DNA of 64,000 nt from Fulvia fulva (lineage: Eukaryota; Ascomycota; Dothideomycetes; Mycosphaerellales; Mycosphaerellaceae). Location of the stretch: the NCBI RefSeq assembly GCF_020509005.1, contig NC_063012.1, positions 5,580,001 through 5,644,000 on the forward strand. Direction: 5' to 3'. Positions 5,838-48,621 of the stretch are shown here, one piece after another (the first letter of the stretch is position 1; every line of letters begins with the position of its first letter). The notes beneath the pieces were generated by a model. That model was given only the letters and a program-made list of their open reading frames with translations, did no database searches and was not told the origin of the DNA. The translations under genes and the position numbers were made by a program.

Positions 5838-6919
5838 GGTCGACGACGAGAATTACCTATACGTAGTACCGGCTACGAACCTCTCGTCTTACTACGAGAG
5901 AGCTAAGTATTCTTACGCTAGAGCGTCGTAGGCGCGACGGGCGCGTAACGTAGGCGAAGCCGCGGCGAATAGAGGACTACTAGTAAAACGGGTATAAAAA
6001 CTATCCGACGAGCGTATACTCGTGTTAGGAGCGAGTCCCTCTTCTTTCTACGTATAAGAAGGGCGCGGAACCGTAGCCTATACGCTCGATAGGACACCTC
6101 TAGTATAAGTATAGAATTTTCACCTCTAAAGACCGTAAACCGAGCGGGCTAAGCGACGAATATTAGACGAGCGGACTATAGAATAACAACTAAGCGGACT
6201 ATACGACGGCGTCGAGCGGACTACAAAACAATCTAGTATTTACTAGCGGGTAATACGGTAGGTAGGTAGACACGCGACGAAGCCTATAAGGGCCTATTAA
6301 GTACCCGGTATAGGAACGAGGGTTTTACCTAAGGCACTACCTATCCCGCTATATAACGTACCTAGTCTAATATAGTAGATTACGACGAGGAAAAGACGAT
6401 AGCCTAAGTAAGGAAAAGACGGCTATTAGGACGGGGAAAAGACGTATAATATAAGTAGATTAGTTCTATAATCGGGGAGGATCGAGGGTAGGGTAATAAG
6501 GAACTTTATATTAGTTAGTAGGTAGAAACGTAAGGAGTACGCTACCCGGCGTAGTATGTGCCCTAAGTAAACCTACGAGGTATAGACGGCCGCTTTCTAG
6601 AGATAGGCTACGGTAACGCGAAGGGTATTAAAACCTAGGGCGTAGTATATACTAGTAGCGACGGCTAACACTATCTATATAGCCCGAGAGGACGGATACG
6701 TATATCGGTTAATAGAGAGCACTAAAGGGCTTAGGCCTATAGAGGTAGATGTTAGCTTAAGGAGCAAATAGGGAGGGAGGGCGTAGAGGGAAGCTTTTGC
6801 TCCGGACTAACCTCTCGAAACGAGACTATACGGTAGTACTAGATAAGTAGGAAAGCGCGGTTAAGACTTATTACCTTATCTTATAGCTAGCTTACTAAAT
6901 ACAATTCCTTCCTTACCCT
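5838..6919 (+). repeat. 1,082-bp 5' module, copy 1 (same as 42826-43907)
   Basis: This stretch has the same length as the copy opening LINE B2, with no net indel. Differences are mostly C/T and G/A, with this copy having the T or A form. It shows no LINE ORF homology. Each frame I read has about as many stops as chance predicts, including TGA codons in the better copy that RIP at CpA would not make, so I treat it as non-coding. It holds two sets of spaced decamers: GAGCGG(A/G)CTA four times and GGAAAAGACG three times, each at intervals of about 22-27 bp. See the findings for the template-jump interpretation. Confidence 0.85.
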
Positions 6920-8560
6920 CGACATTATAGGAGCCTTTGACAACGTCTTATACTAAAGGCTAATATATATTCTATAATAGAAAGGCATCCCCTAGTAGGT
7001 AATAAAATTCGTCTACTCCTTTCTCTAGGAACGGACGACATATCTAGTCCTAGGGGGTATACGTCCGACCCGGTAAAGGTAGAGGCTAGAATACCTTAGG
7101 GATCTACTCTCTCCCCTATCCTATTTCTAATATTTATATCTAGTCTAATCCCCCTACTTACCTCTCCGTAAACCTTAGTATCGGGATTTATAGACGATAT
7201 AAACATTCTAGCCTAGTTAGACTTAATAGAGGAGAACTGTCGCCTTCTTAAAGATAGGTATAAGAAATACGAGGAGTAGGTAAAGAAGTCTAGTACCCGG
7301 TTCGCCCCTAAAAAGTAATAACTTGTATACTTTAGTAAAGCGAGAATATACTATAATATAAAGGCGGCGGTAAGAATCTAAGGCTACGAGACTAAGCTAT
7401 TAGCGGAGCTACGAGTACTAGGGATCTAGCTCGACCCGAAGCTAAGCTAGAATATATAGATTAAGAAAGCCTAGAGTCGAGCGCAAGTTAACAAAGCCTC
7501 GATAAAGAGGCTTACGGCGTCTATATAGGGAGTAACATTCGATAAGGTAAGAGTAATATATAAGGCAATCGTTAGACTAGCTATATTATACGGGGCATAG
7601 ATTTAGGGAACAGGAGGCGTAGGTAAGCCGATCCCGAAACGGATAGAGTAACCCCTAAATAGGATATAGGTAGATAACCTACGTAGGATACTAGGTATAT
7701 ATAAGACAACGTTAATAAGTACGGTAGAAATAGAGACGGGAACACTACTAATCGGCTAATTTATCCGGGAAATAAGAATTTAATACGCGGTAAAGACGAC
7801 AGATTACCTAGTATAAACTACGATCTAGGAGGTAAAGAATAAGATTGAAAGCCGCTACCGGAGAGGGGCCGGACATAGGACAAGCTAAAAAGAGGATGAC
7901 CTTACTACCTTTACGGCCGTATATATAAGTACCGAATAGCTAGTACGAAAAGAGGAGGAGCGTAGGACTCGCTAGCCCGGCGGGAGTAAGGCTAAGACCT
8001 AAAGTCTAGCGGAATAGATAGCGAGCTATCTATAGGAGTAGGACTAGAAAAGGAAACCCTCTAAGACAATAGGCCCGATAGTACTCCGAGCCTTCTAGAG
8101 ACATAATTACTAGCTATATAGGGACCTAATAAGGGCCGAAGTAAGTATAGCGATCTAAATTAGGTCCGAATATATTAGATTAAGGGCCTACCTGTTTAGG
8201 AGACGCGTACTAGACATCTAAAGCCTAGCCTACTAGTATAGCTACCTATCGTAAAACCTAGAATATATACTACTATAATGCTCGTAGTAAGCGAGAGGTA
8301 GGGGAAATTAGAGGCACTAAGCGGGAAGAAGAGACTATAAGTCAATTATTAGGAATAAAGGTAATATTTGCCGAATCTCTTAGTAGATACTATAGTAGGG
8401 ATACCTCTAGTAGTTTAGCCTTGCTAGCGAGACGGAGGAGTAGATAGATAAGAGGCGGAAGCTAGGGGGTTTATAGATAGGGTAGTTATTAGGGTAGGCC
8501 TATAATACTAGCGTACCCTTAATAAGGGAAATCTAAGACGATAACGAGGGGGAAAAGATA
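6912..8560 (+). pseudogene. LINE C ORF2 fragment: RT palm to C-terminal zinc finger
   Basis: The reading begins within RT motif A (FLTLDIIGAFDNV). It continues through IPQGSTLSPILFL (motif B), SGFIDDINILA (motif C; FIDD for FVDD), FAPKK, LRVLGI and LDPKLS (thumb), a KASIKRLTASI helix and ILYGA. It ends with a degraded C-terminal cysteine/histidine knuckle (SYLSQNLEYILLQCS, equivalent to CGYxSQNxEHxxxxC in LINE A2). Interruptions are TAG/TAA. It is a distinct LINE subfamily, diverged from A and B. Without the endonuclease and upstream RT it cannot transpose by itself. Confidence 0.85.
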
Positions 8561-8690
8561 GGCGGGAAGGAGGAGGGGTTTTTACTAATACGGTTTCCCC
8601 TCTATATATACGAAAATAAGAAAGTATAGCTATATAGGCTAAAGGTCACTATAATAGCTTAATGAAATATCTATCTATCTATCTACTTAT
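8561..8690 (+). repeat. LINE C 3' UTR and (CTAT)n tail
   Basis: The 3' UTR repeats the plan seen in LINEs A2, A3, B1 and B2: GGTTTTTAC, then CGGTTTCC, a T/A-rich stretch, TATAGGC, a GGTCACTATA segment, AATGAAAT, and then about four CTAT units. LINE-encoded RT recognises such 3' ends to start target-primed reverse transcription. Confidence 0.8.
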
Positions 8691-28079: not shown

Positions 28080-28229
28080 GATAGATAGATCTGTCATTCC
28101 CCTATTCTAGGACTCTATCCGGCCTATATAGGTATATATTTATTGTTATATATAAAGGGAAACCCGAATAGGTGAAAACCCTTCCCGCCCCCGACTACTC
28201 CTTATCTAGATTAGCTTTCCCTCTAAACG

Positions 28230-31200
28230 TACGTAGTCTATATTACTACCCCGTTAGCCCCCGCTCCTAGCCGGTCTCGTCGCGCTACGTCGTGTCCTCT
28301 CTTCCTATACTACTCCTACTAGGCGGTACTATTCTAGCTAGCCCTTCTCTAGTATCTAGTTCGTAATACGCCGTAGGTCCTTAGCGTTATTAAGAAGTGC
28401 CCTAATCGTCCGGTTCCTCGCCTTTACTATCTACTCCCCCCTTCCTAGCGACTACCTCGAATAGACGAGGAGTACGTACCGTACGTTCTAGGAGTAATAG
28501 CCGTAGGGGCAGCTAGTATTCGTATATCCTAGAACCTTCCTCTATAATAGGTACCCCTAGAGGCCGATATGTTCGCTTCGTAGTTAGGTTACTATACTAC
28601 TCTATACCCTCGTAAGGCGGTAGTAGATAAGCTTCGGAGGGTGCTTGACCGCGGATTTTATAGCTAACTATTCCTTAGGTTGTCCCGCTAGCTAAGGGCG
28701 TCTACTATACCCTACACCCTAGTTGTTCCACCTCTCTTTCTATAGTTGCTCTATAAACGACTTCTTACCTTCCTATCGTATTACTAGCTATTCGTCCCTT
28801 ACCCGGTAGTTCGGCTCGTTTCCGGGTCGAATGCCCTTATACGCTAGTACTAATTCGCGGGCCCTTACGACTATACTAGCGATGACCTTCTATACTAGGT
28901 ACTGTGCCGACTTGCCTAAGTAGGAGGTCCGTAGTCTCTAGATATATAGGTCGATCGGCGGTATAGCGGTCTCGTACTTAAGTATCCTTATTAGTGTCGA
29001 CTTATATGTCCCGGTGACCTTCCTTAGGCATTGGTTTTTGATCTTCGCTAGCGGCGCGACGAGTCCCTTCGATGGGCAGGCCCTCTCGCCTAAGGACTAC
29101 ACTTGGCTGCCATAGGTAAGGACTGGCCGTATAATAGCCGTATATAGAAGTCGTGACTGCCGGAAGTCCGCCCCCTATATAGACGCAGTGAGCCTCTAGC
29201 ATGATGCCATATTCTGTTCAGCTTTCCGTAATATTGCCTATACGTGCTTCCTCTACCGTAGCGCCGGGTCCACCTATAGTCCGAGGATCCTGAGCTGATT
29301 TGCCGGGTTAGTCGTATGCCCCTATATCTAGATAGAAGCTTATATATTATAGAACCGTAGCCGGCGCGTAAAGTGTATTAGATTGTACTTTTCTGGGGCA
29401 AACCGAGCCCCGTGCCTCCTAGCCCAGTCCTCGCAGATCTTGTGCTTCTCTTCTAGTAGCCTACAGTTCTCCTCAGTCGAGGAAGACCACGCTAGGATGT
29501 TTGTGTCGTCTACGAAGCCACTCGTAGCGGTGTTCTAGGATTCTAGGGCTAGGAGTAGCGTCGCTATAAAGAAGAGGAACAGAATAGGTGCTAGCGTTAA
29601 GCCTTACGGGATTCTAGTATAGACTGCTTAAAATAGGCTTCTATACTAGCCGACTAGGATCGACGTACTACGGTTTTAGAGGTAGGACCGTACGAAGTTA
29701 ATAAGCTACTTAGGGAGTCCTTTCGACCTTAGGATATAGAGTAGCCGCGGGTATAACACGTAGTCGAAGGCTCCCGATATGTCTAGACTAGGTAAGGATA
29801 CTACCTTGTCCCTATTCCTATACTAGATAGCCTTTACCTAAGAGGTAATAAGTTCTATCGCGGATAGCGTCGACCGCTATAGGCGCGTACCTATCTAGGT
29901 GTCCGGGAGTAGGGAGTACTCCTCTACCGCCTCGGAGAGTCTCGTTATAACTAGCTTCTTAAGCGCCTTCCTAAGAGTATTAAGGAGCGTAATTAGGCGG
30001 TACGACTTCACCTACGTATAGTCTTCCTTTTGCGGCTTACGTCGGACTACTGTCGTCGATTGTTTAAATGCTATCGGGTAGTATCCGGTCTATAGGTAGG
30101 CGTTAAAGATCGCTATAACTACTAGGGCTAGTTGATCTCTACACTTCTTTAGTAGCTCGTTTAGGATCCTATCCGGCCCCGGGGCTTTCTTCGCCGGTAA
30201 CTTCCTAAGTATAGCGGCAACTTCTCCCTCGGATACCTCCTATTAGACCGCGATACTAGGGGCTAGGGAAGTGGAGCTGTTTATGTCGCTTAGATTAGCC
30301 TCGACTAGGGGCGGGAAGAACTTACTAGCTAGTAGACGCGCCTTAGCCTCGGGGTCGCTAACCGGGCTACTAGGCGATTATAGCGCTAGGATAGAGAAGG
30401 AGGGGCGCTATATAGAGTCCTATTGGGCCTATTTCACTAGCCTCTATATCCTCGCTAGCTTGCCGGCGATTTCTTCTACTATAGCCCTCTAGCCGGCTAC
30501 TTTCTCCCTCCGTATTATAGCTTTCTTCTATTAGTATGCCTCCCTATATACGTTCTAGGCCTCCTCGCTATAGCTACTCGTCCACACCCGGCGGGCTCTC
30601 CTTACTTCTCTTACTACCGTAGTATACTCCGGCGTCTAGTATAGTTTAGACTATATCGTTAGTTAGGTAAGCGGAACGTAAAGTAAGGTCGCTTTTCTTA
30701 TTTCGTCTATTAACCCTTAGACTGCCTCGTCTATCTCGTCTTTACTATTATATTACTACTACGCGATCTAGACTAGCCTCTCGGAGTTATCGAGGTACGC
30801 CTAGATATTAGCCTAGTAGGCCTTTCCCTAGTTTAGCTTAGGGGTTCTCGCTAGTATATATTATATCTATATTATAATAGAGGTCCTAACTAGTATATAG
30901 TCTAACGACGCCTCGAGTTTATATTCGATCCTATAGTAGGTTACTATATAGTAGTAGCTATCTAAGATCTAGGAGAGGTCGATCGTGCCTTAGAGTCCCC
31001 CTCTCTTCTAGGTGCCTAGGTCCTTCGGGGTATTAAGCGCAATTACGTTACTCGCTATTAAGTCGAGTACTTCGTCGGCTATAGGGTGCGGCTATATAAG
31101 GCTTTCCTAGGAAGGGTAGTATATATTAAAGTCTCCTACTACGATATAGTACCCTTGTCTCTTAAGCGTACTGTCTAGGTGTCTATAGACCCCTAGGTCG

Positions 31201-31565
31201 CTACTAGACCTCGAGGCTAGCGGTTATATATATAGGTTGTGTATCTAGGTACTACCTACGTAGAGGGAGGTAATATCACCCCCGCCTTCTTCGTCTACGT
31301 AGTACACTACCTCCTAGTCGGATTCTAGTATGTCCTTACTAATATAGAAGTACGTACGGGGTCTACCGTCGCCTCGTAGGTATATCGTGTAGCCTAGTAA
31401 CTTATAGGTCGTTAGTCTCTTATAGTACGGGTTAATCTATAGCTCCTAGATTACTAGGACGTAGTAGACGTACGGGTCCGCCTTATATAGGAAATAGTTC
31501 TAGACTATATCCTTACTATAGTTAACGTTATACTAGATAATACTAAGCGTATCGAGGCTAGTTAT
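28230..31565 (-). pseudogene. LINE B1 ORF2: endonuclease-reverse transcriptase
   Basis: Same order as LINE B2 ORF2. Endonuclease GDFN is near 31130-31145. RT segments include the KKAPGPDRI-type region near 30150-30200, SYRPI near 29990-30010 and SGFVDDTNILAW at about 29480-29530 (catalytic DD kept). A C-terminal cysteine knuckle is near 28490-28530. Dense TAG/TAA codons inactivate it. The start codon position reads ATA where LINE B2 has ATG, a RIP-type change. Confidence 0.85.
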
Positions 31566-32900
31566 CGGTATCGACAATCATTTCCTCTATAGCGTCCTAT
31601 GTTCTACTACCTTATACGTCCTAGTCTACGCCTATCGGCTATATACTAAAGGGGAGCCGGGCCTAGTTAGATTCCCTCGCCGTAGCGAGTAGAGTACGTA
31701 GCCTCCCGTACGCCCTAGGTTACGTATCCTTTATATTATTCTCGGCCCTAGGGCGCTTATACCCGACCGCCGCTAGCTAGTTCCGGTATAGGCTAGCCTT
31801 ACGGTCGCCGTAGAATCTTAGGGCGACGGTTCTGTTTATAATTACCTTGTTTTTCGCTAGTTTCTACTATAGGCATTCCGCGCTATACGATAGGTAGTGC
31901 CCCGGACAGTTCGCGTACCGTCTCGTAGCCAATATATAGTCCCTAGATATATAGTCTCCTATATAGTTCGAGCAGGCCTGCTTATTTATATACGTATAGG
32001 TTTGGTGTCTATACTGTTAGTATTTGAAGTATTAGAGGATACGAAAGGATAAGGAGTGCTTTTCTACTATCTTAAGGCTATATAACTAGATCAGGCCTTA
32101 TTCTATTACTAGATCCGCCGCTTTCGCGTCTTTTAGCTATACTATTAGCGCCGAGGCCTTCTTACCTTCTAGCCATTTCCTATAGAGCCAAGTCGCCTTC
32201 TAGATTAGAGAGTTAAGAGTGACCGGGTTGTCCTCTTAGAGAGTACGTAGGTGACCTTAGTTAGTTAGGTCGAACTCCTTAGGTATATCGCGGACTAGGA
32301 TCGTGAAATTGCTTCGTTAAGACCTTCGCTAATACCGTAACCTTAGATGCCTACTATAGCTATGCCTCTAGGTGCCTCCTAGTAGTAGTAGAGCTAGTAT
32401 AGATCTATAGAGTGCCGTTAGACTATTGGTTCACTACGACTACCCCTAGTTAGTTAATTCGTTAGGCGAGTTCCTTGTTCGATAGCTTCGTAACTTCGGC
32501 CTAGTCTTCCTTTGCTATAATACGGATCGTAACTATATCGTGCGTTAGGCGGGGGCCTAGTGTCGATACCGCGACCGATACCTAGCTATAGGGGTGTTAA
32601 TTCCGGAAGGCCTTACTAATTGCCTAGGACGTCGTCCTTATTTCTTATTGCCCTCGGTAATACGACAGTACAAGCGCCGTACGTAGCTAAGTAATTATTA
32701 CCTATAGAGACCGGTATAGGAGCTAATCGTTAGTTTCTATACTTTTTGCGTCCTCTATAAGTTGCTACTAGTTGTCTTAGGGGAGCTTCGCCTATAGAGC
32801 CGTAGGCGCCGTTAGTGCCGTAGCCTAGGCTACTATTGCCTAGGAGTTGCCTAATGTAGCTAGGCACCTCCGCGGCGTTAAGAGCTAAAGAAACAGAGTG
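31560..32900 (-). pseudogene. LINE B1 ORF1: gag-like protein
   Basis: Aligns with LINE B2 ORF1 (LIEDAKSIETN near 32750; LQYFKY/YRHQ-type knuckles near 31980-32040). Upstream of the point where LINE B2 switches to its module, this copy continues in frame for at least 35 codons of Ala-rich sequence (ATALTAP, KLP), so the true N-terminus of the family is longer than what B2 retains. Confidence 0.75.
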
Positions 32901-33076
32901 AAGAGAACTTCAAGCTGTCTAGATTAAATGAGGTAGAACTCCCTCAATTCTAGGGGTAGTGGCCTGCTTTGTATATCGTTAGAATGGCCTTAATAAGAGC
33001 TTTCGAATATGTCGTGTTTTAGGGCCACCCTCGATAATATTAATAAGATAATTCTTATACCTCCGGTAGGTAAAAT
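32901..33076 (-). other. LINE B1 5' terminal segment, possibly a captured LINE RT fragment
   Basis: This end lies inside the target duplication, so it arrived with LINE B1, but it is unlike the module at the 5' end of LINE B2. One minus-strand frame reads KALIKAILTIYKAGHYP, resembling the RT segment before KSYRP in LINE ORF2 (compare VVAIFNACL, GYHP in B2). It may be a short fragment of another LINE captured at the 5' end, or a normal leader. Confidence 0.4.
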
Positions 33077-35981: not shown

Positions 35982-37382
35982 GATGCCCCTTATATAGGAT
36001 ACCCTTAACCGTATCGTAGGAAAAAGGTACTTCACTAAACTCGATATTATCGTAGCCTTTAATCGTATACGGATTGCTAAAGGCTTAGAATAGCTAATAG
36101 CTTTTACTACGAGATATAGATAGTTTAAATGCCTTATAATGCCGTTTAGTCTATATAACGCCTAGGGACGTTTTAGTCTTATATTAACGATACCCTAAGG
36201 GAGTTCTTAGATAACTTCGCCTCGGTACACCTCGACGACATCTTAATATTTAGTAATACCTTAGAAGGATATATCGAATATATAAAGAAGGTGCTCTAGA
36301 AACACGGCGAGGCCGGCCTACAACTCGACATTACTAAGTACGAGTTTTATACCTAATCTACTAAGTACTTAAGTATTATTATTAGTAAGAAGGGAGTCTT
36401 AATAGATTCGGCTAATATGTAAGCGATACGAGAATAGGGTATACCGGCTAATATTAAAGATATCCTTACGTTTAATAGCTTCTCCGGCTTTTATCGGCGC
36501 TTTATTAAGAACTATAGTAAGATAGTACTGCCTATAGTAAAGCTAACTAAGAGAGACACACCTTAGTAGTAGACTAAAGAGTATTAAAAGGCCTTCGATA
36601 GGCTAAAGTAAGCGTTTACCGATAAAGAAGGTACTATCCTTATAATGTTTGTTCTAGGGCGTAGAACCGTCCTTAAAATAGATACTAGCGACTTTGTTAC
36701 TACGGCGGGACTATCTTAATACGATAAGGACAATACCTTAAGACCTATAGTATACTTATCTAAGAAAATAAGCCCGTTAGAATATAATTATAACATCTAT
36801 AATAAGGAGCTACTTACTATTATTAAAGCTTTCGAAGAATAGAGACCTGAGCTTATAGTAGGTAATATCGATAAAGAATCCGACTTCGAAAACCTATAAG
36901 ACCCGAGCGGCCGCCCTATACTTATATATAGCGACTATAAGAACCTCGAGTACTTTATAAGTTCGAAATAGCTAAATCGTCGATAAGCGAGATAGGCCGA
37001 GTTCCTATTACAATTCTTCTTTAAGATTATATATAGACTAGGCGTATAAGGGGCAAAGCTAGATAGTCCTATACGGCGCTCTTAGGATATAATTCTATAA
37101 GACAAGTCCGACCCGAGGTATATTTAATAGGACCGGATCCTACTAAAACTAGAGCACTTCCTTTTAGTCTCTATAAGCACGATTATCCGACTATCTTCCT
37201 TAGAAGTAGGAGTAGTCGTAGATAAATAACTAGCTACTAACATTAGTAAGTTATATAAACAAGAAGATACGATAGAGACTACGACTTAGCTAGTAGCCGG
37301 TAAGCCTATTAAGCTCCTTCGTAAGAACAAGATCGATAACAAATATATAATACTAATCGATAGTATAATCTATATTAAGAAC
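35982..37382 (+). pseudogene. gypsy-4 pol: RT from mid-fingers, RNase H, tether
   Basis: Starts abruptly in [36 protein letters not shown] (motif B region), a small deletion near 36165, then DDILIFSNTLEGY (the second catalytic position keeps LDD here). YLSIIIS and [11 protein letters not shown] follow. RNase H has [24 protein letters not shown] (about 36750-36830) and SDYKNLEYF. The tether ends KNKIDNKYI and IYIKN at the copia-1 insertion, and the frame resumes at 48706. Stops are TAG/TAA. Confidence 0.86.
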
Positions 37383-37616
37383 TGTTAAGAATATATAGGC
37401 CGTAGGTCAAGTATATAGGTGTGGGTACGTTATGTAACTAGACTATATAACTAGAGTTTACTAGCCTATAGGCTAGTAAACATCCGGACACCTAGTATCT
37501 ACCTATACTAATACTAGCGATACTGTATATAGATATACGCCATCCTATTAGGTCCTTCTTTGTCTTTCGTATAATCCGCCGTCTTCTACTACTACGTAAC
37601 TCGTACCTATTTAATA
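37383..37616 (+). repeat. copia-1 5' LTR (234 bp)
   Basis: Starts TGTTAAGAATATATAGGCCG and ends CGTACCTATTTAATA (RIP form of TTTAACA). The U5 end is shared with the LTRs of copia-2 and copia-3, which otherwise differ. Confidence 0.95.
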
Positions 37617-42690: not shown

Positions 42691-42825
42691 TGTTAAGAAC
42701 ATATAGGCCGTAGGTCAAGTATATAGGTGTAGGTGTGTTATGTGACTAGATCACGTGACTAGGGTTTACTAGCCTATAGGCTAGCAAACATCCGGACACC
42801 TAGTATCTACCTATATATAGATATA
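42691..42825 (+). repeat. copia-1 3' LTR, left piece
   Basis: Begins TGTTAAGAACATATAGGCCG after a purine-rich GTAGGAG. It keeps more G and C than the 5' LTR. It ends at the LINE B2 target duplication TATATAGATATA (42814-42825). Next to the duplication it lacks 20 bp present in the 5' LTR. Confidence 0.93.
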
Positions 42826-43907
42826 GGTCGACGACGAGAATCACCTATACGTGGTGTCGGCTACGAACCTCTCGTCTAGCTACGAGAGAGCCAAGTATTC
42901 TCACGCTAGAGCGTCGTAGGCGCGACGGGCGCGTAGCGTAGACGAAGCCGCGGCGAACAGAGGACTACTAGCAAAACGGGTATGAAAACTATCCGACGAG
43001 CGTGTACTCGTGTCGGGAGCGAGTCCCTCTTCTTTCTACGTGCAAGAAGGGCGCGGAACCGTGGCCTATACGCTCGACAGGACACCTCTAGTATAAGTGC
43101 AGAATTTTCACCTCCGGAGACCGCAAACCGAGCGGGCTAAGCGACGAACATTAGACGAGCGGACTACAGAACAACAACTGAGCGGACTATGCAACGGCGT
43201 CGAGCGGACTACGAAACAATCTGGTGTTTACTAGCGGGCAATGCGGTAGGTAGGTGGATACGCGACGAAGCCTATAAGGGCCTATTAAACACCCGGTATA
43301 GGAACGAGGGTTTTGCCTAAGGCACTGCCTGTCCCGCTACACAACGCACCTAGTCTGACATAGTAGATTGCGACGAGGAAAAGACGATAGCCTGAGCAAG
43401 GAAAAGACGGCTGTTAGGACGGGGAAAAGACGTACAATGCAAGTAGATTAGTTCTGTGATCGGGGAGGATCGAGGGCAGGGTAATAAGGAACTTCATATT
43501 GGTTAGTAGGTGGAAACGCAAGGAGTACGCTGCCCGGCGTAGTGTGTGCCCCGAGCAAACCTACGAGGCATAGACGGCCGCTTTCTAGAGATAGGCTACG
43601 GTAACGCGAAGGGCGTCAAAACCTAGGGCGTGGTGTACACTAGCAGCGACGGCTAACACTGTCTATACAGCCCGAGAGGACGGATGCGCATGTCGGTCAA
43701 TAGAGAGCACTAAAGGGCTTAGGACTATAGAGGTGGATATTGGCTTAAGGAGCAAACAGGGAGGGAGGGCGTAGAGGGAAGCTTTTGCTCCGGGCTAACC
43801 TCTCGAAACGAGGCTATACGGTGGTGCTAGATGAGTAGGAAAGCGCGGTTAAGACTTGTCACCTTATCTCGTAGCTAGCTTGCTAAATACGATTCCTTCC
43901 TTGCCCT
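42826..43907 (+). repeat. 1,082-bp 5' module, copy 2 (less RIP-mutated)
   Basis: Same start, same end and same length as 5838-6919. No ORF of note on either strand; the frame in phase with ORF1 has about 19 stops, three of them TGA. Four GAGCGG(A/G)CTA decamers start at 43130, 43157, 43180 and 43202. Three GGAAAAGACG decamers start at 43377, 43400 and 43423. The target duplication encloses the module, so it moved together with LINE B2. Confidence 0.9.
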
Positions 43908-45126
43908 AAGACAACTGGCAGCAACTTATAGAGGACGCAAAAAGCATAGAAACTAACGATCAGCTCCCTTACCGGTCTCTATAGGTAATGATCACTCAGC
44001 TACGCACGGCGCTTGTACTGTCGTATCACCGAGGGCAACAAGAAATGAGGACGACGTCCTAGGCGATTAGTAAGGCCACCCGGAATCAACACCCCTATAG
44101 CTAGGCATCGGTCGCGGCATCGATACTAGGCCCCCGCCTAACGCACGATATAGTTACGATCCGTATTGTAGCAAAGGAAGACCAGGCCGAAGTTGCGAAG
44201 CTATCGAACAAGGAGCTCGCCTAACGAATTAACTAACCAGGGGTGGTCGTAGTGAACCAACAGTCTAACGGCACTCTATAGATCTATACTAGCTCTACTA
44301 CTACTAGGAGGCACCTAGAGGCATAGCTACAGTGGGCATCTAAGGTTACGGCATTAGCGAAGGTCTTAACGAAACAATTCACGATCCTAGTCCACGACAT
44401 GCCTAAGGAGTTTGACCCAACTAACTAGGGTCACCTACGCGCTCTCTAAGAGGACAACCCGGTCACTCTTAACTCTCTAATCTAGAAGGCGACTTGGCTC
44501 TATAGGAAATGGCCAGAAGGCAAGAAGGCCTCGGCGCTAATAGTATGGCTACAAGACGCGAAAGCGGCGGATCTAGCGATAGAACAAGGCCTAGTCTAGC
44601 AATACAGCCTCAAGACAGTAGAAAAGCACTCCTTATCCTTTCGTGTCCTCCAATGCTTCAAATGCTAACAGTATAGACACTAAACCTACACGTGCACAAA
44701 CAAGCAGGCCTACTCGAACTATATAGGAGACTATATGTCTAGGGACTATACATCGACTACGAGACGGTGCGCGAACTGTCCGGGGCACCACCTATCGTAT
44801 AGTGCGGAATGCCCACAGCGGAAACTAGCGAAAAACAAGGCAATCACAAACAGAACCGTCGCCCTAAGATTCTACGGCGACCGTAAGGCTAGCCTATACC
44901 GGAACTAACTAGCGGCGGTCGGGCATAAGCGCCCTAGGGCCGAGAACGATGTAAAGGATACGCAGCCTAGGGCGTACGGGAGGCCACGTGCTCTGCTAGC
45001 TACGGCGAGGGAATCTAACTAGGCCCGGCTCCCCTTTAGTATATAGCCGATAGGCGTAGACTAGGACGTATAAGGTAGTAGGATATAGGACGCTATAGAG
45101 GAAATGATTGTTAATGCCGATAACTA
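43908..45126 (+). pseudogene. LINE B2 ORF1: gag-like, N-terminally replaced
   Basis: Reads DNWQQLIEDAKSIETN after the module, then an RNA-binding-type middle (VHDMPKEFDP, KATWLYRKWPEGKKA). Three knuckles follow at about 44653-44815: CFKC then HI-TYTC, a degraded second (YSNYIGDYMSRDY) and CANCPGHHLSYSAEC. A basic C-terminus includes GHKRPRAEND. It runs past the ORF2 start codon in another frame. Stops are TAG/TAA. Confidence 0.85.
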
Positions 45127-48100
45127 GCCTCGACACGCTTAGCATCATCTAGTATAACGTCAACTATAGCAAGGATATAGTCCAGAACCATTTCCTACAC
45201 GAGGCGGACCCGCGCGTCTACCACGTCCTTACAATCCAGGAGCTATAGATTAACCCGCACTATAAGAGACCAACGACCTACAAGTTACTAGGCTATACGA
45301 CATGCCTACGAGGCGACGGCAGACCCCGCACGTGCTTCTATGTCAGCAAGGATATACTAGAATCCGACTAGGAGGTAGTGTACTACGTAGACGAAGAAGG
45401 CGGGGGCGATATTACCTCCCTCCACGTAGGTAGCACCTGGATACACAACCTATATATACAACCGCTAGCCTCGAGGTCTAGCCGCGACCTAGGGGTCTGC
45501 AGACACCTAGACAGTGCGCTTAAGAGACAAGGGTGCTACATCGTAGTAGGAGACTTCAACATACACTATCCTTCCTAGGAAAGCCTTATGTAGCCGCACC
45601 CTATAGCCGACGAAGTACTCGACTTGATGGCGAGCAACGCAATTGCCCTTAATACCCCGAAGGACCTGGGCACCTAGAAGAGAGGGGGACTCTAAGGCAC
45701 GATCGACCTCTCCTAGATCTCAGATAGCCACTACTACACGGTAACCTACTGTAGGATCGAACATAAACTCGAGGCGTCGTCAGACTACATGCTAGTTAGG
45801 ACCTCTATTACGACATAGATACAACGCACACTAGCGAGAACCCCTAAGCCAAACTGGGGAAAGGCCTACTAGGCCAATATCTAGGCGTACCTCGATGACT
45901 CTAAGAGGCTAGTCCAGATCGCGTAGTAGCAATATAACAGCAAAGACGAGATAGACGAAGCAGTCTAGGGGTTGACAGACGAAATAAGAAAAGCGACCTC
46001 ACTTCACGTTCCGCTTGCCTAACTAACGATATGGTCTAAACCATACTGGACGCCGGAGTGCACTGCGGTAGTAAGAGAAGCAAGGAGAGCCCGCCGGGTA
46101 TAGACGAGCAGCCATAGCGAGGAGGCCTAGAACGTATATAGGGAGGCATGCTAACAGAAGAAAGCTATAATACGGAGGGAGAAAGCAGTCGGCTGGAGGG
46201 CTACAGTGGAAGAAATCGCCGGCAAGCTAGAGAGGATGTGGAAGCTAGCGAAATGGGCCCGACAGGACCCTACACAGGGCCCCTCCTTCTCTATCCTAGC
46301 GCTACAATCGCCTAGTGGCCCGGTTAGCGACCCCGAGGCCAAGGCGCGTCTACTGGCTAGCAAGTTCTTCCCACCCCTAGTCGAGGCTGATCTAAGCGAC
46401 ATAAACAGCTCTACTCCCCTAGCCCCTAGTATCGCGGTCTAATAGGAGGTGTCCGAGGGAGAAGTTACCGCTGTGCTAAGGAAGTTGCCGGCGAAGAAAG
46501 CCCCGGGGCCGGATAGGATCCCAAACGAGCTACTAAAGAAGTGTAGAGATCAACTAGCCCTAGTAGTTGTAGCGATCTTTAACGCCTGCCTATAGACCGG
46601 ATACCACCCGATAGCTTTTAAACAATCGACGACAGTGGTCCTACGCAAGCCGTAGAAGGAAGACTATACGTAGGTGAAGTCGTACCGCCCAATTGCGCTC
46701 CTTAACACTCTTGGGAAGGCGCTTGAGAAGCTGGTTGCAACGAGACTCTCCGAGGCGGCAGAGGAACACTCCCTACTCCCGGACACCCAGATGGGTGCGC
46801 GCCTATAGCGATCGACGCTATCCGCGATGGAACTTATCACCTCTTAGGTAAAGGCCATCTAGTATAAGAATAGGGACAAGGTGGCTTCCTTACTTAGCCT
46901 AGACATATCGGGAGCCCTCGACTACGTATCATACCCGCGGCTTCTCTACATCCTAAGGTCGAAAGGACTCCCTGAGTGGCTTGTCAACTTCGTACGGTCC
47001 TACCTCTAAAACCGCAGTACGTCGATCCTGGTCGGCCAGTACAGAAGCCCATTTCAAGCAGTCTACACTAGAATCCCGTAAGGCTCAACGCTAGTACCTA
47101 TTCTGTTCCTCTTCTTTATAGCGACGCTGCTCCCAGCCCTAGAATCCCAGAACACCGCTGCGAGCGGCTTCGTAGACGACACAAACATCCTAGCGTAGTC
47201 TTCCTCGACTAAGGAGAACTGTAGGCTACTAGAAGAGAAGCACAAGATCTGCGAGGACTGGGCTAGGAGGCACGGGGCTCGGTTTGCCCCAGAAAAGTAC
47301 AATCTGATACACTTTACGCGCCGGCCACGGTTCCACAATATACAAGCTTCTATCTAGATATAGGGGCACACGACTAACCCGGCAAATCAGCTTAGGATCC
47401 TCGGACTATAGGTAGACCCGGCGCTACGGTAGAGGAAGCACGTATAGGCAATATTACGGAAAGCTGAACAGAATATAGCATTATACTAGAGGCTTACTAC
47501 GTCCATATAGGGGGCGGACTTCCGGCAGTCACGACTTCTATATACGGCTATTGTACGGCCAGTCCTTACCTATAGCAGCCAAGTGTGGTCCTTAGGCGAG
47601 AGGGCCTGCCTATCGAAGGGAGTCGTCGCGCCGCTAGCGAAGATCTAAAACCAATGCCTAAGGAAGGTCACCGGGGCATATAAGTCGACACTAACGAGGA
47701 TGCTTAAGCACGAGACCGCTATACCGCCGATCGACCTATATATCTAGGGACTACGGACCTCCTACTTAGGCAAGTCGGCACAGTACCTAGTATAGAAGGT
47801 CATCGCCAGTGCAGTCGCAAGGGCCCGCGAATCAGTACTAGCGCATAAGGGCATTCGACCCGGAAACGAGCCGAACTACCGGGTAAGGGACGAATAGCTA
47901 GCAACACAATAGGAAGGTGAGAAATCGTTTGTAGAGCAACTATGGAAAGAGAGGTGGAACAACCAGGTTGTAGGGCATAGTGGACGCCCTTAGCCAGCGG
48001 GACAACCTAAGGAATAGTCAGCTACAAAATCCGCGGTCAAGCACCCCCCGAAGCTTATCCACTACCGCCTTACGAGGGCATAGAGTAGCATAGCAACCCA

Positions 48101-48480
48101 ACTACGAAGCGAACACATCGGCCTCTAGGGGTACCTATTATGGAGGAAGGTCCTAGGATACACGAATACTAGCTGCCCCTACGGCTATCGCTCCCAGAAC
48201 GTACGGTACGCACTCCTCGTCTGTCCGAGGTGGTCGCTAGGAAGGGGGGAGTGGATGGCAAAGGCGAGGAACCGGACGATTAGGGCACTTCTTAACAACG
48301 CTAAAGACCTACGGCGCATTACGAACTAGATACTAGAGAAGGGCTGGCTAGAACAGTACCGCCTAGTAGGAGCAGTGTAGGAAGAGAGGACACGACGTAG
48401 CGCGACGAGACCGGCTAGGAGCGGGGGCTAACGGGGTAGTGACATGGACTACGTACGTTTAGAGGGAAAGCTAATCTAGA
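45114..48480 (+). pseudogene. LINE B2 ORF2: endonuclease-reverse transcriptase
   Basis: Met at 45114 (MPITSLDTLSII then YNVNYSKD, aligned with LINE A2 ORF2). Endonuclease: RTCFYVSKDILESD, DITSLHVGSTWIHNLYIQP, YIVVGDFNIHYPS (about 45530-45575), GTIDLS, and ASSDYMLV (SDH changed to SDY). Linker: FFPPLVEADL. RT: KKAPGPDRIPNELLKK, KSYRPIALLNTLGKALEK, LSLDISGALDYVSYPRLL (motif A), GSTLVPILFLFFIATL (motif B), SGFVDDTNILA (motif C, intact at about 47160-47190), RLTTSI. C-terminal knuckle: CPYGYRSQNVRYALLVC. Open segments starting at 45378 and 46206 share the start frame; stops are TAG/TAA. Confidence 0.92.
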
Positions 48481-48609
48481 TAAGGAGTAGTCGGGGGCGG
48501 GAAGGGTTTTCACCTATTCGGGTTTCCCTTTGTACATAACAATAGATATATACCTATATAGGCCGGATAGGGTCCTAGAACAGGGGAATGACAAATCTAT
48601 CTATCTATC
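48481..48609 (+). repeat. LINE B2 3' UTR and CTAT tail
   Basis: Contains GGGTTTTCACCTATTCGGG, TTTCCC, TATAGGCCGGATAGGG, CAGGGGAATGACAAAT and then CTAT units to 48609. It is the mirror image of the LINE B1 end at 28080-28210 and shares its plan with the A and C families. Confidence 0.9.
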
Positions 48610-48621
48610 TATATAGATATA

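Follow-up and report, generated by a model that had tools for sequence, protein, structure and literature searches.

A constant non-coding module, present in hundreds of copies in Fulvia fulva, is fused to several LINE subfamilies, probably by template jumping

The window, that is, the whole stretch of 64,000 nucleotides of Fulvia fulva DNA that was analysed, harbors two chimeric elements, B2 and C, in which a module forms the 5' part and a 5'-truncated LINE follows (Table 1). The initial annotation had given both module copies the same start, end and a length of 1,082 bp. The pairing holds, since the two copies align without a gap over this length (983 of 1,082 positions identical), but the part that is constant across loci is 1,078 nt long, runs from GGTCGACG to CCTTCCTTG and ends in G1078. 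The CCCT that follows in both copies is LINE sequence common to the two partners by chance. The annotation was right that the copies head different LINE subfamilies at distant points: in B2 the junction lies in LINE type B, ahead of the ORF2-matching part, and in copy C it lies in LINE type C, within motif A of the reverse transcriptase (RT). Past the module ends, similarity between the two copies is limited to target sequence and extends for about 15 bp, so that a longer common element is not found.

Table 1. Positions, within the window, of the module copies, their LINE partners and the associated target sites
Feature	Position	Strand	Remarks
Module, 5' part of LINE chimera B2	42826..43903	+	1,078 nt; ungapped match to copy C; ends constant across loci
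LINE type B fused to the module, 5'-truncated	43904..48609	+	(ATCT)n-type tail; 92% identical to the copy at 28080-33076
Target site duplication of B2, left	42814..42825	.	TATATAGATATA; 12 bp
Target site duplication of B2, right	48610..48621	.	TATATAGATATA; 12 bp
Paralogous unoccupied B2 target site	37360..37616	.	Single TATATAGATATA; 20-base difference beside it
Module, second copy (C), RIP-mutated	5838..6915	+	Ungapped alignment; constant start and end; RIP analysis
LINE type C, 5'-truncated in RT motif A	6916..8685	+	(ATCT)n-type tail, its end judged by eye
Module-less LINE type B copy, for comparison	28080..33076	-	Spans the B2 junction uninterrupted

Module copies and LINE partners in the genome

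The assembly searched is gapless and comprises 67,169,167 bases in 14 contigs. The last 26 nt of the module match it at 623 places with at most 2 mismatches, and the first 30 nt at 574 places. Reversed-pattern controls gave 0 matches in each case, and a chance origin is therefore dismissed. Taken in genome order, 24 of the first 30 copies begin at position 1 or 2 of the module, and the other 6 have their start within it, between positions 338 and 957; the earlier statement that the module is always complete thus applies to the 24 and fails for the 5'-truncated 6. For two LINE types, 647 and 1,395 3' ends were counted genome-wide, which gives about 30% of LINE insertions with a module, an upper estimate as only these two LINE types were included.

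What follows the module was read at 83 places, a number that leaves out L072 (the same place as L031) and includes the duplicates L017/L023 and the tandem L027-L029. A LINE follows in 81 of them and a second module copy in 2, and at none of the 83 does the module stand alone. In the chimeras, module and LINE always have the same relative orientation. The partners belong to at least three LINE subfamilies, counting groups D and E, which are 98.6% identical, as one. At the protein level, their ORF2 pieces show identities of 57% between C and B, 63-68% between C and D, and 56-65% between D and B. They would be of the Tad1 type, a clade name taken from the available part of the genome paper, where Tad1 LINEs are given as 16.3% of the genome (PMC9453070). 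The partners at L033, L034, L041 and L046 may represent further LINE subfamilies. The LINE behind the module at L041 carries heavy RIP mutation, shows a gag-like zinc-knuckle pattern and matches none of the other loci at the nucleotide level; this partner is perhaps an additional subfamily, its assignment as a LINE being weaker than the others, with a translation made by eye and one tblastn match at 3e-6.

The partner at L066 retains an ORF2 remainder that is open for 1,065 codons and matches PF14529, PF03372 and PF00078 (endonuclease and reverse transcriptase domains). Here, together with L093 (C5:5683900-5687900), a perfect module copy, the open ORF2 and a 14-bp duplication occur in one element, a combination that we take as a sign of recent activity.

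The module-less LINE B copy of the window has a duplication of its own, tatatcgcgatc, and a 56-nt leader, both read by eye. In LINE B copies that extend to the 5' end, AAAACACGAC is preceded by differing leaders, about 35 to 56 nt long, in the window at 33021-33076 (minus strand) and, directly behind the module, at L004, L060 and L077. These leaders are possibly flank carried from a parent site, or pieces of other RNAs.

Module and LINE of B2 had been proposed to have inserted as one unit. This is borne out: the duplication encloses the whole of B2 and the paralogous unoccupied site holds a single copy of it, and for these reasons module and LINE must have entered together. Duplications of 11-15 bp surround the whole chimera in 13 of the 16 elements tested (11 of 13 in one batch, plus B2 and L066, with copy C negative), both module dimers included. 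No clear target duplication was seen at L021, L006 and copy C, the other 3 of the 16. A CTATATA-like target lies about 8-18 bp upstream of most module starts among L001-L060, and the LINEs appear to prefer such sites.

The two dimers, L073 and L074, consist of a complete module, then a module beginning at position 165 or about 371, then a LINE, all within one enclosing duplication. Two successive jumps of a reverse transcriptase explain this arrangement, whereas inheritance of the module as a 5' UTR does not. The module does stand at the 5' end of every chimera examined, as a 5' UTR would, and one could imagine that it is the ordinary leader of a LINE, with junctions created by later deletions. 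An ordinary 5' UTR would have a single constant junction with a single LINE family. Instead, 55 distinct breakpoints were found, one module heads subfamilies that are 56-68% identical in protein, the breaks follow a sequence motif, and module-less LINE copies span the junctions, the B2 junction among them. Already contradicted on these grounds, a 5' UTR origin deserves practically no credence. Numerous copies with constant termini and variable LINE junctions are what the initial annotation had named as support for its reading; one LINE sequence behind all copies, which it had named as a refutation, was not observed.

The copies differ from each other mainly by RIP. When 47 ungapped copies were compared with a RIP-corrected consensus, 2,049 of the 2,102 differences were C>T or G>A, and 1,772 of these lay in a CA/TG context; only 26 reverse transitions and 27 transversions remained. 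The consensus takes C or G wherever it occurs in at least 8% of the copies, which partly sets the direction of the C>T and G>A changes and has no bearing on the transversions. Only three non-RIP variants are common to several copies. One of them, a transversion at module position 53, is present in L032, L048, L053, L055 and window copy C. These five belong to the more mutated copies and have different LINE partners, as if the source sequence had changed over time. The consensus is matched perfectly by twelve copies, spread over eight contigs, and a LINE is fused to every one of these copies; the exact matches followed by a purine after the module end are likewise fused in 7 of 7 cases. Judged by this near-uniformity, the source looks like a single, slowly changing sequence that has been used repeatedly and recently.

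Solo or genic donor copies, which had also been expected, did not turn up: none was found in the 83 places examined of 623, a survey that a donor split by introns or altered by RIP would escape. The absence of a solo perfect copy does not prove that a source gene is absent, since such a gene could be intron-split, RIP-altered or among the other ~540 copies. The module was also considered as a SINE, which would have copies of its own with a LINE-like 3' tail and no LINE body; solo copies were found at 0 of the 83 places.

Breakpoint motif and hot spots

For 46 of the 55 breakpoints, the native sequence is known from an uninterrupted LINE or module copy. Position 0, the native base that is replaced by the last G of the module, is a pyrimidine in all 46. 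The base before it (position -1) is a purine in 43, the exceptions being L001, L009 and L016, and the first base retained after the break is a pyrimidine in 42 and a C in 40. In the first 33 sites, the succession purine, pyrimidine, pyrimidine occurs at 30, compared with 9.8% of random LINE positions; P values for this set are descriptive, as the motif was derived from the same sites. Out of sample, the motif R|Y.C was found in 9 of 9 new, unselected sites (8 in LINEs and 1 inside the module), against a background of 5.7%, and four further sites picked for a purine after the module all kept R|Y. In the dimer L073, the inner module copy, which starts at position 165, shows the same motif (A163|C164.C165). 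Three choices enter these counts. First, the native row of L066 is one other than L056, which is itself a chimera. Second, L070 and L055 have the same breakpoint, which was counted once. Finally, the merging of sites pools homologous sites of different subfamilies (L016 with L033, and L035 with L040).

If the module were an exon spliced to sites within LINE RNA, the outcome would likewise be a single fixed 5' partner with many 3' points. Such an origin is contradicted by the motif: the base before the retained LINE is a pyrimidine in 46 of 46 sites, and there is hence no AG acceptor, which makes splicing scarcely conceivable here. Transfer guided by homology was rejected as well, the 22 nt upstream of the native breaks resembling the module end no more than control sites do.

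Fourteen of the 55 breakpoints are common to at least two copies. The strongest hot spot corresponds to the codons of RT motif A, where LINE types B, C and D break at slightly different bases; 98 module copies genome-wide break within 6 nt of these codons. In 11 groups of copies with the same junction, only the duplicate pair L017/L023 has related flanks; in this comparison the flanks of L050 and L052, which are truncated copies, are not the adjacent ones. One unusual LINE B junction with a purine after the break occurs at L075, L076 and L079, on C2, C5 and C9, with unrelated flanks, and reflects either a hot spot or an amplified chimera.

Such recurrence could mean that most copies descend from a restricted number of chimeras, whose transcripts arise from the module and which LINE proteins mobilise in trans. 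The 14 recurrent breakpoints and the rare junction type at three places with unrelated flanks would fit this origin. It would nevertheless still require 55 breakpoints, and it has to accommodate the slightly different bases at which LINE B, C and D break in motif A and the different LINE partners of the older module variants. As the source of most copies, amplification is therefore highly improbable. The route can operate alongside template jumping, and given the recurrent breakpoints part of the copies may be ready-made chimeras that were amplified.

Template jumping onto a discrete RNA

Very probably, the LINE reverse transcriptase jumps off the LINE RNA and lands on the 3' end of a single discrete module RNA, the reading that had been put forward for the two window copies and that the constant ends, the variable junctions and the insertion as a unit with duplications now support. 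The module would be the DNA copy of a non-polyadenylated RNA about 1,078 nt long. While several Tad1-type subfamilies carry out target-primed reverse transcription, the enzyme would quit the LINE RNA at R|Y.C, a purine-pyrimidine step usually followed by C, and would resume synthesis on the 3'-terminal G of the module RNA, usually continuing to its 5' end. The whole cDNA would then enter TATATA-like targets with an 11-15 bp duplication. Constant ends, variable breakpoints, a single orientation, duplications, motif and dimers can be read directly in the genomic sequence; from them we infer that the switch takes place during reverse transcription and that a free RNA with G1078 as its last base acts as the acceptor.

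The contrast between a nearly uniform module (27 transversions in 47 copies) and partners that have diverged to 56-68% protein identity argues for jumping. The 5'-truncated module copies (6 of 30), the dimers, the empty site of B2 and the breaks in motif A were also counted in its favor. Counted against it were the lack of a stand-alone RNA gene among the loci found, the 3 of 46 sites without a purine, the 3 of 16 elements without a duplication, the nine breakpoints of 55 for which no native copy was available, the 14 recurrent breakpoints, a module fold no better than that of shuffles and the lack of an Rfam match.

The main rival to template jumping is a joining of the RNAs before they are copied, in which a cut between Y and C would release a 3' fragment of the LINE RNA, and ligation would attach this fragment to the module RNA at the latter's 3' end. 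A motif as sharp as R-Y|C would suit an RNA-cutting enzyme, and RNA ligation is a published alternative for U6/LINE-1 in the available text of PMC13174262. The 5'-truncated modules fit reverse transcription after joining under ligation as under jumping. The dimers, with an inner copy starting at a site of the same type, would need two cuts and two ligations, and we consider ligation improbable.

Known parallels and the nature of the module

Template jumping was also the mechanism inferred for the MINE elements of Magnaporthe grisea, in which WEIRD, a full-length, non-coding sequence of 1,113 nt, is joined to the 5'-truncated LINE MGL (PMC2104539). The available part of that report describes 33 bipartite elements and one tripartite element, puts the missing WEIRD source gene down to an incomplete genome and gives, in its table 3, a native switch motif GCC, GTC or GCT before the break in 17 of 18 rows. 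As far as that text goes, the plan is the same. Both systems have a constant non-coding 5' part of about 1.1 kb with a truncated LINE behind it in the same orientation, target duplications, no solo copy, some repeated junctions, and a native purine-pyrimidine-pyrimidine core at the break. The MINE consensus is GCC*A/U, whereas A/U after the core is not the rule in F. fulva, the two registers being incomparable without the WEIRD 3' end. The F. fulva system is also unlike MINE in its size, with 623 module 3' ends against 33 bipartite elements and one tripartite, in its at least three LINE subfamilies against one LINE (and a SINE), in its module dimers, and in a gapless rather than incomplete assembly. 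One printed 20-nt MINE primer, whose place in MINE is not given in the available text, matches the module no better than shuffles do, a comparison of little weight. The F. fulva chimeras would thus appear to work like MINE, in plan rather than by shown descent.

Two other systems offer partial parallels, again within the available text of the reports. In mammals, chimeras of U6 and other RNAs with LINE-1, for which template switching or RNA ligation has been proposed, likewise carry a cellular RNA 5' of a 5'-truncated LINE, in sense orientation and with target duplications (PMC13174262). They involve known small RNAs and others, whereas the module is 1,078 nt long, has no Rfam match and is present in hundreds of insertions. 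Template jumping and microhomology have been described at R1/R2 junctions (PMC2718515). There, as proposed here, a LINE-type enzyme moves on to a second template despite little or no homology; the difference is that in F. fulva the donor site is internal to the LINE RNA and displays a clear motif.

A search of the fungal literature, beyond whose reach most subscription papers lie, returned such chimeras from Magnaporthe only, and the available parts of the genome papers PMC9453070 and PMC10823647 contain no mention of chimeric elements or template switching. The F. fulva chimeras are a real system with recent activity; the kind is known, the variant new and far larger. The MINE plan is now found outside the class of Magnaporthe, in hundreds of copies within a gapless assembly, where the 12 perfect copies are without exception fused to LINEs. 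The copy numbers yield a breakpoint motif and hot spots, with which the identity of the RNA and the choices made by the enzyme become testable.

A bolder and rather doubtful proposal is that the module, rather than a housekeeping RNA that was captured, is a mobile element of a separate kind without a stand-alone gene, which would multiply solely as the landing point of LINE template jumps. If so, its RNA would be made from chimeric copies, with a promoter and a 3'-end signal within the 1,078 nt, and, where SINEs make use of priming on the 3' side, it would be their counterpart that makes use of the jump on the 5' side. An RNA that persists only through LINE jumps would represent a new form of selfish sequence.

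The module itself is non-coding, its longest sense ATG frame having 52 codons; on the antisense strand there is an ATG frame that runs to 91 codons. No Rfam family was matched within it: the lone weak match (L001, E 0.74) falls outside the module, and a search of L061 gave nothing up to E 10. A group I intron and a telomerase RNA were also considered as identities of the module, with the Rfam search, which gave no match, as the test applied to them. Folding of the first 963 nt gave a structure less stable than 20 shuffles (z +3.2). Mimicry of LINE ends was examined and rejected, with 2 11-mers common to the module and LINE C against 1.45 in shuffles, and none for B and D. One 11-mer, GAGGAAAAGAC, occurs also in the 3' UTR of LINE C, shared 11-mers being at chance level. 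The module further contains two triplets of short repeats with a spacing of about 23 nt, the first at window positions 43159, 43182 and 43204 (consensus 334, 357 and 379) and the second at 43377, 43400 and 43423 (consensus 552, 575 and 598). Their units, GCGGACTA and GGAAAAGAC, respectively, are possible binding sites.
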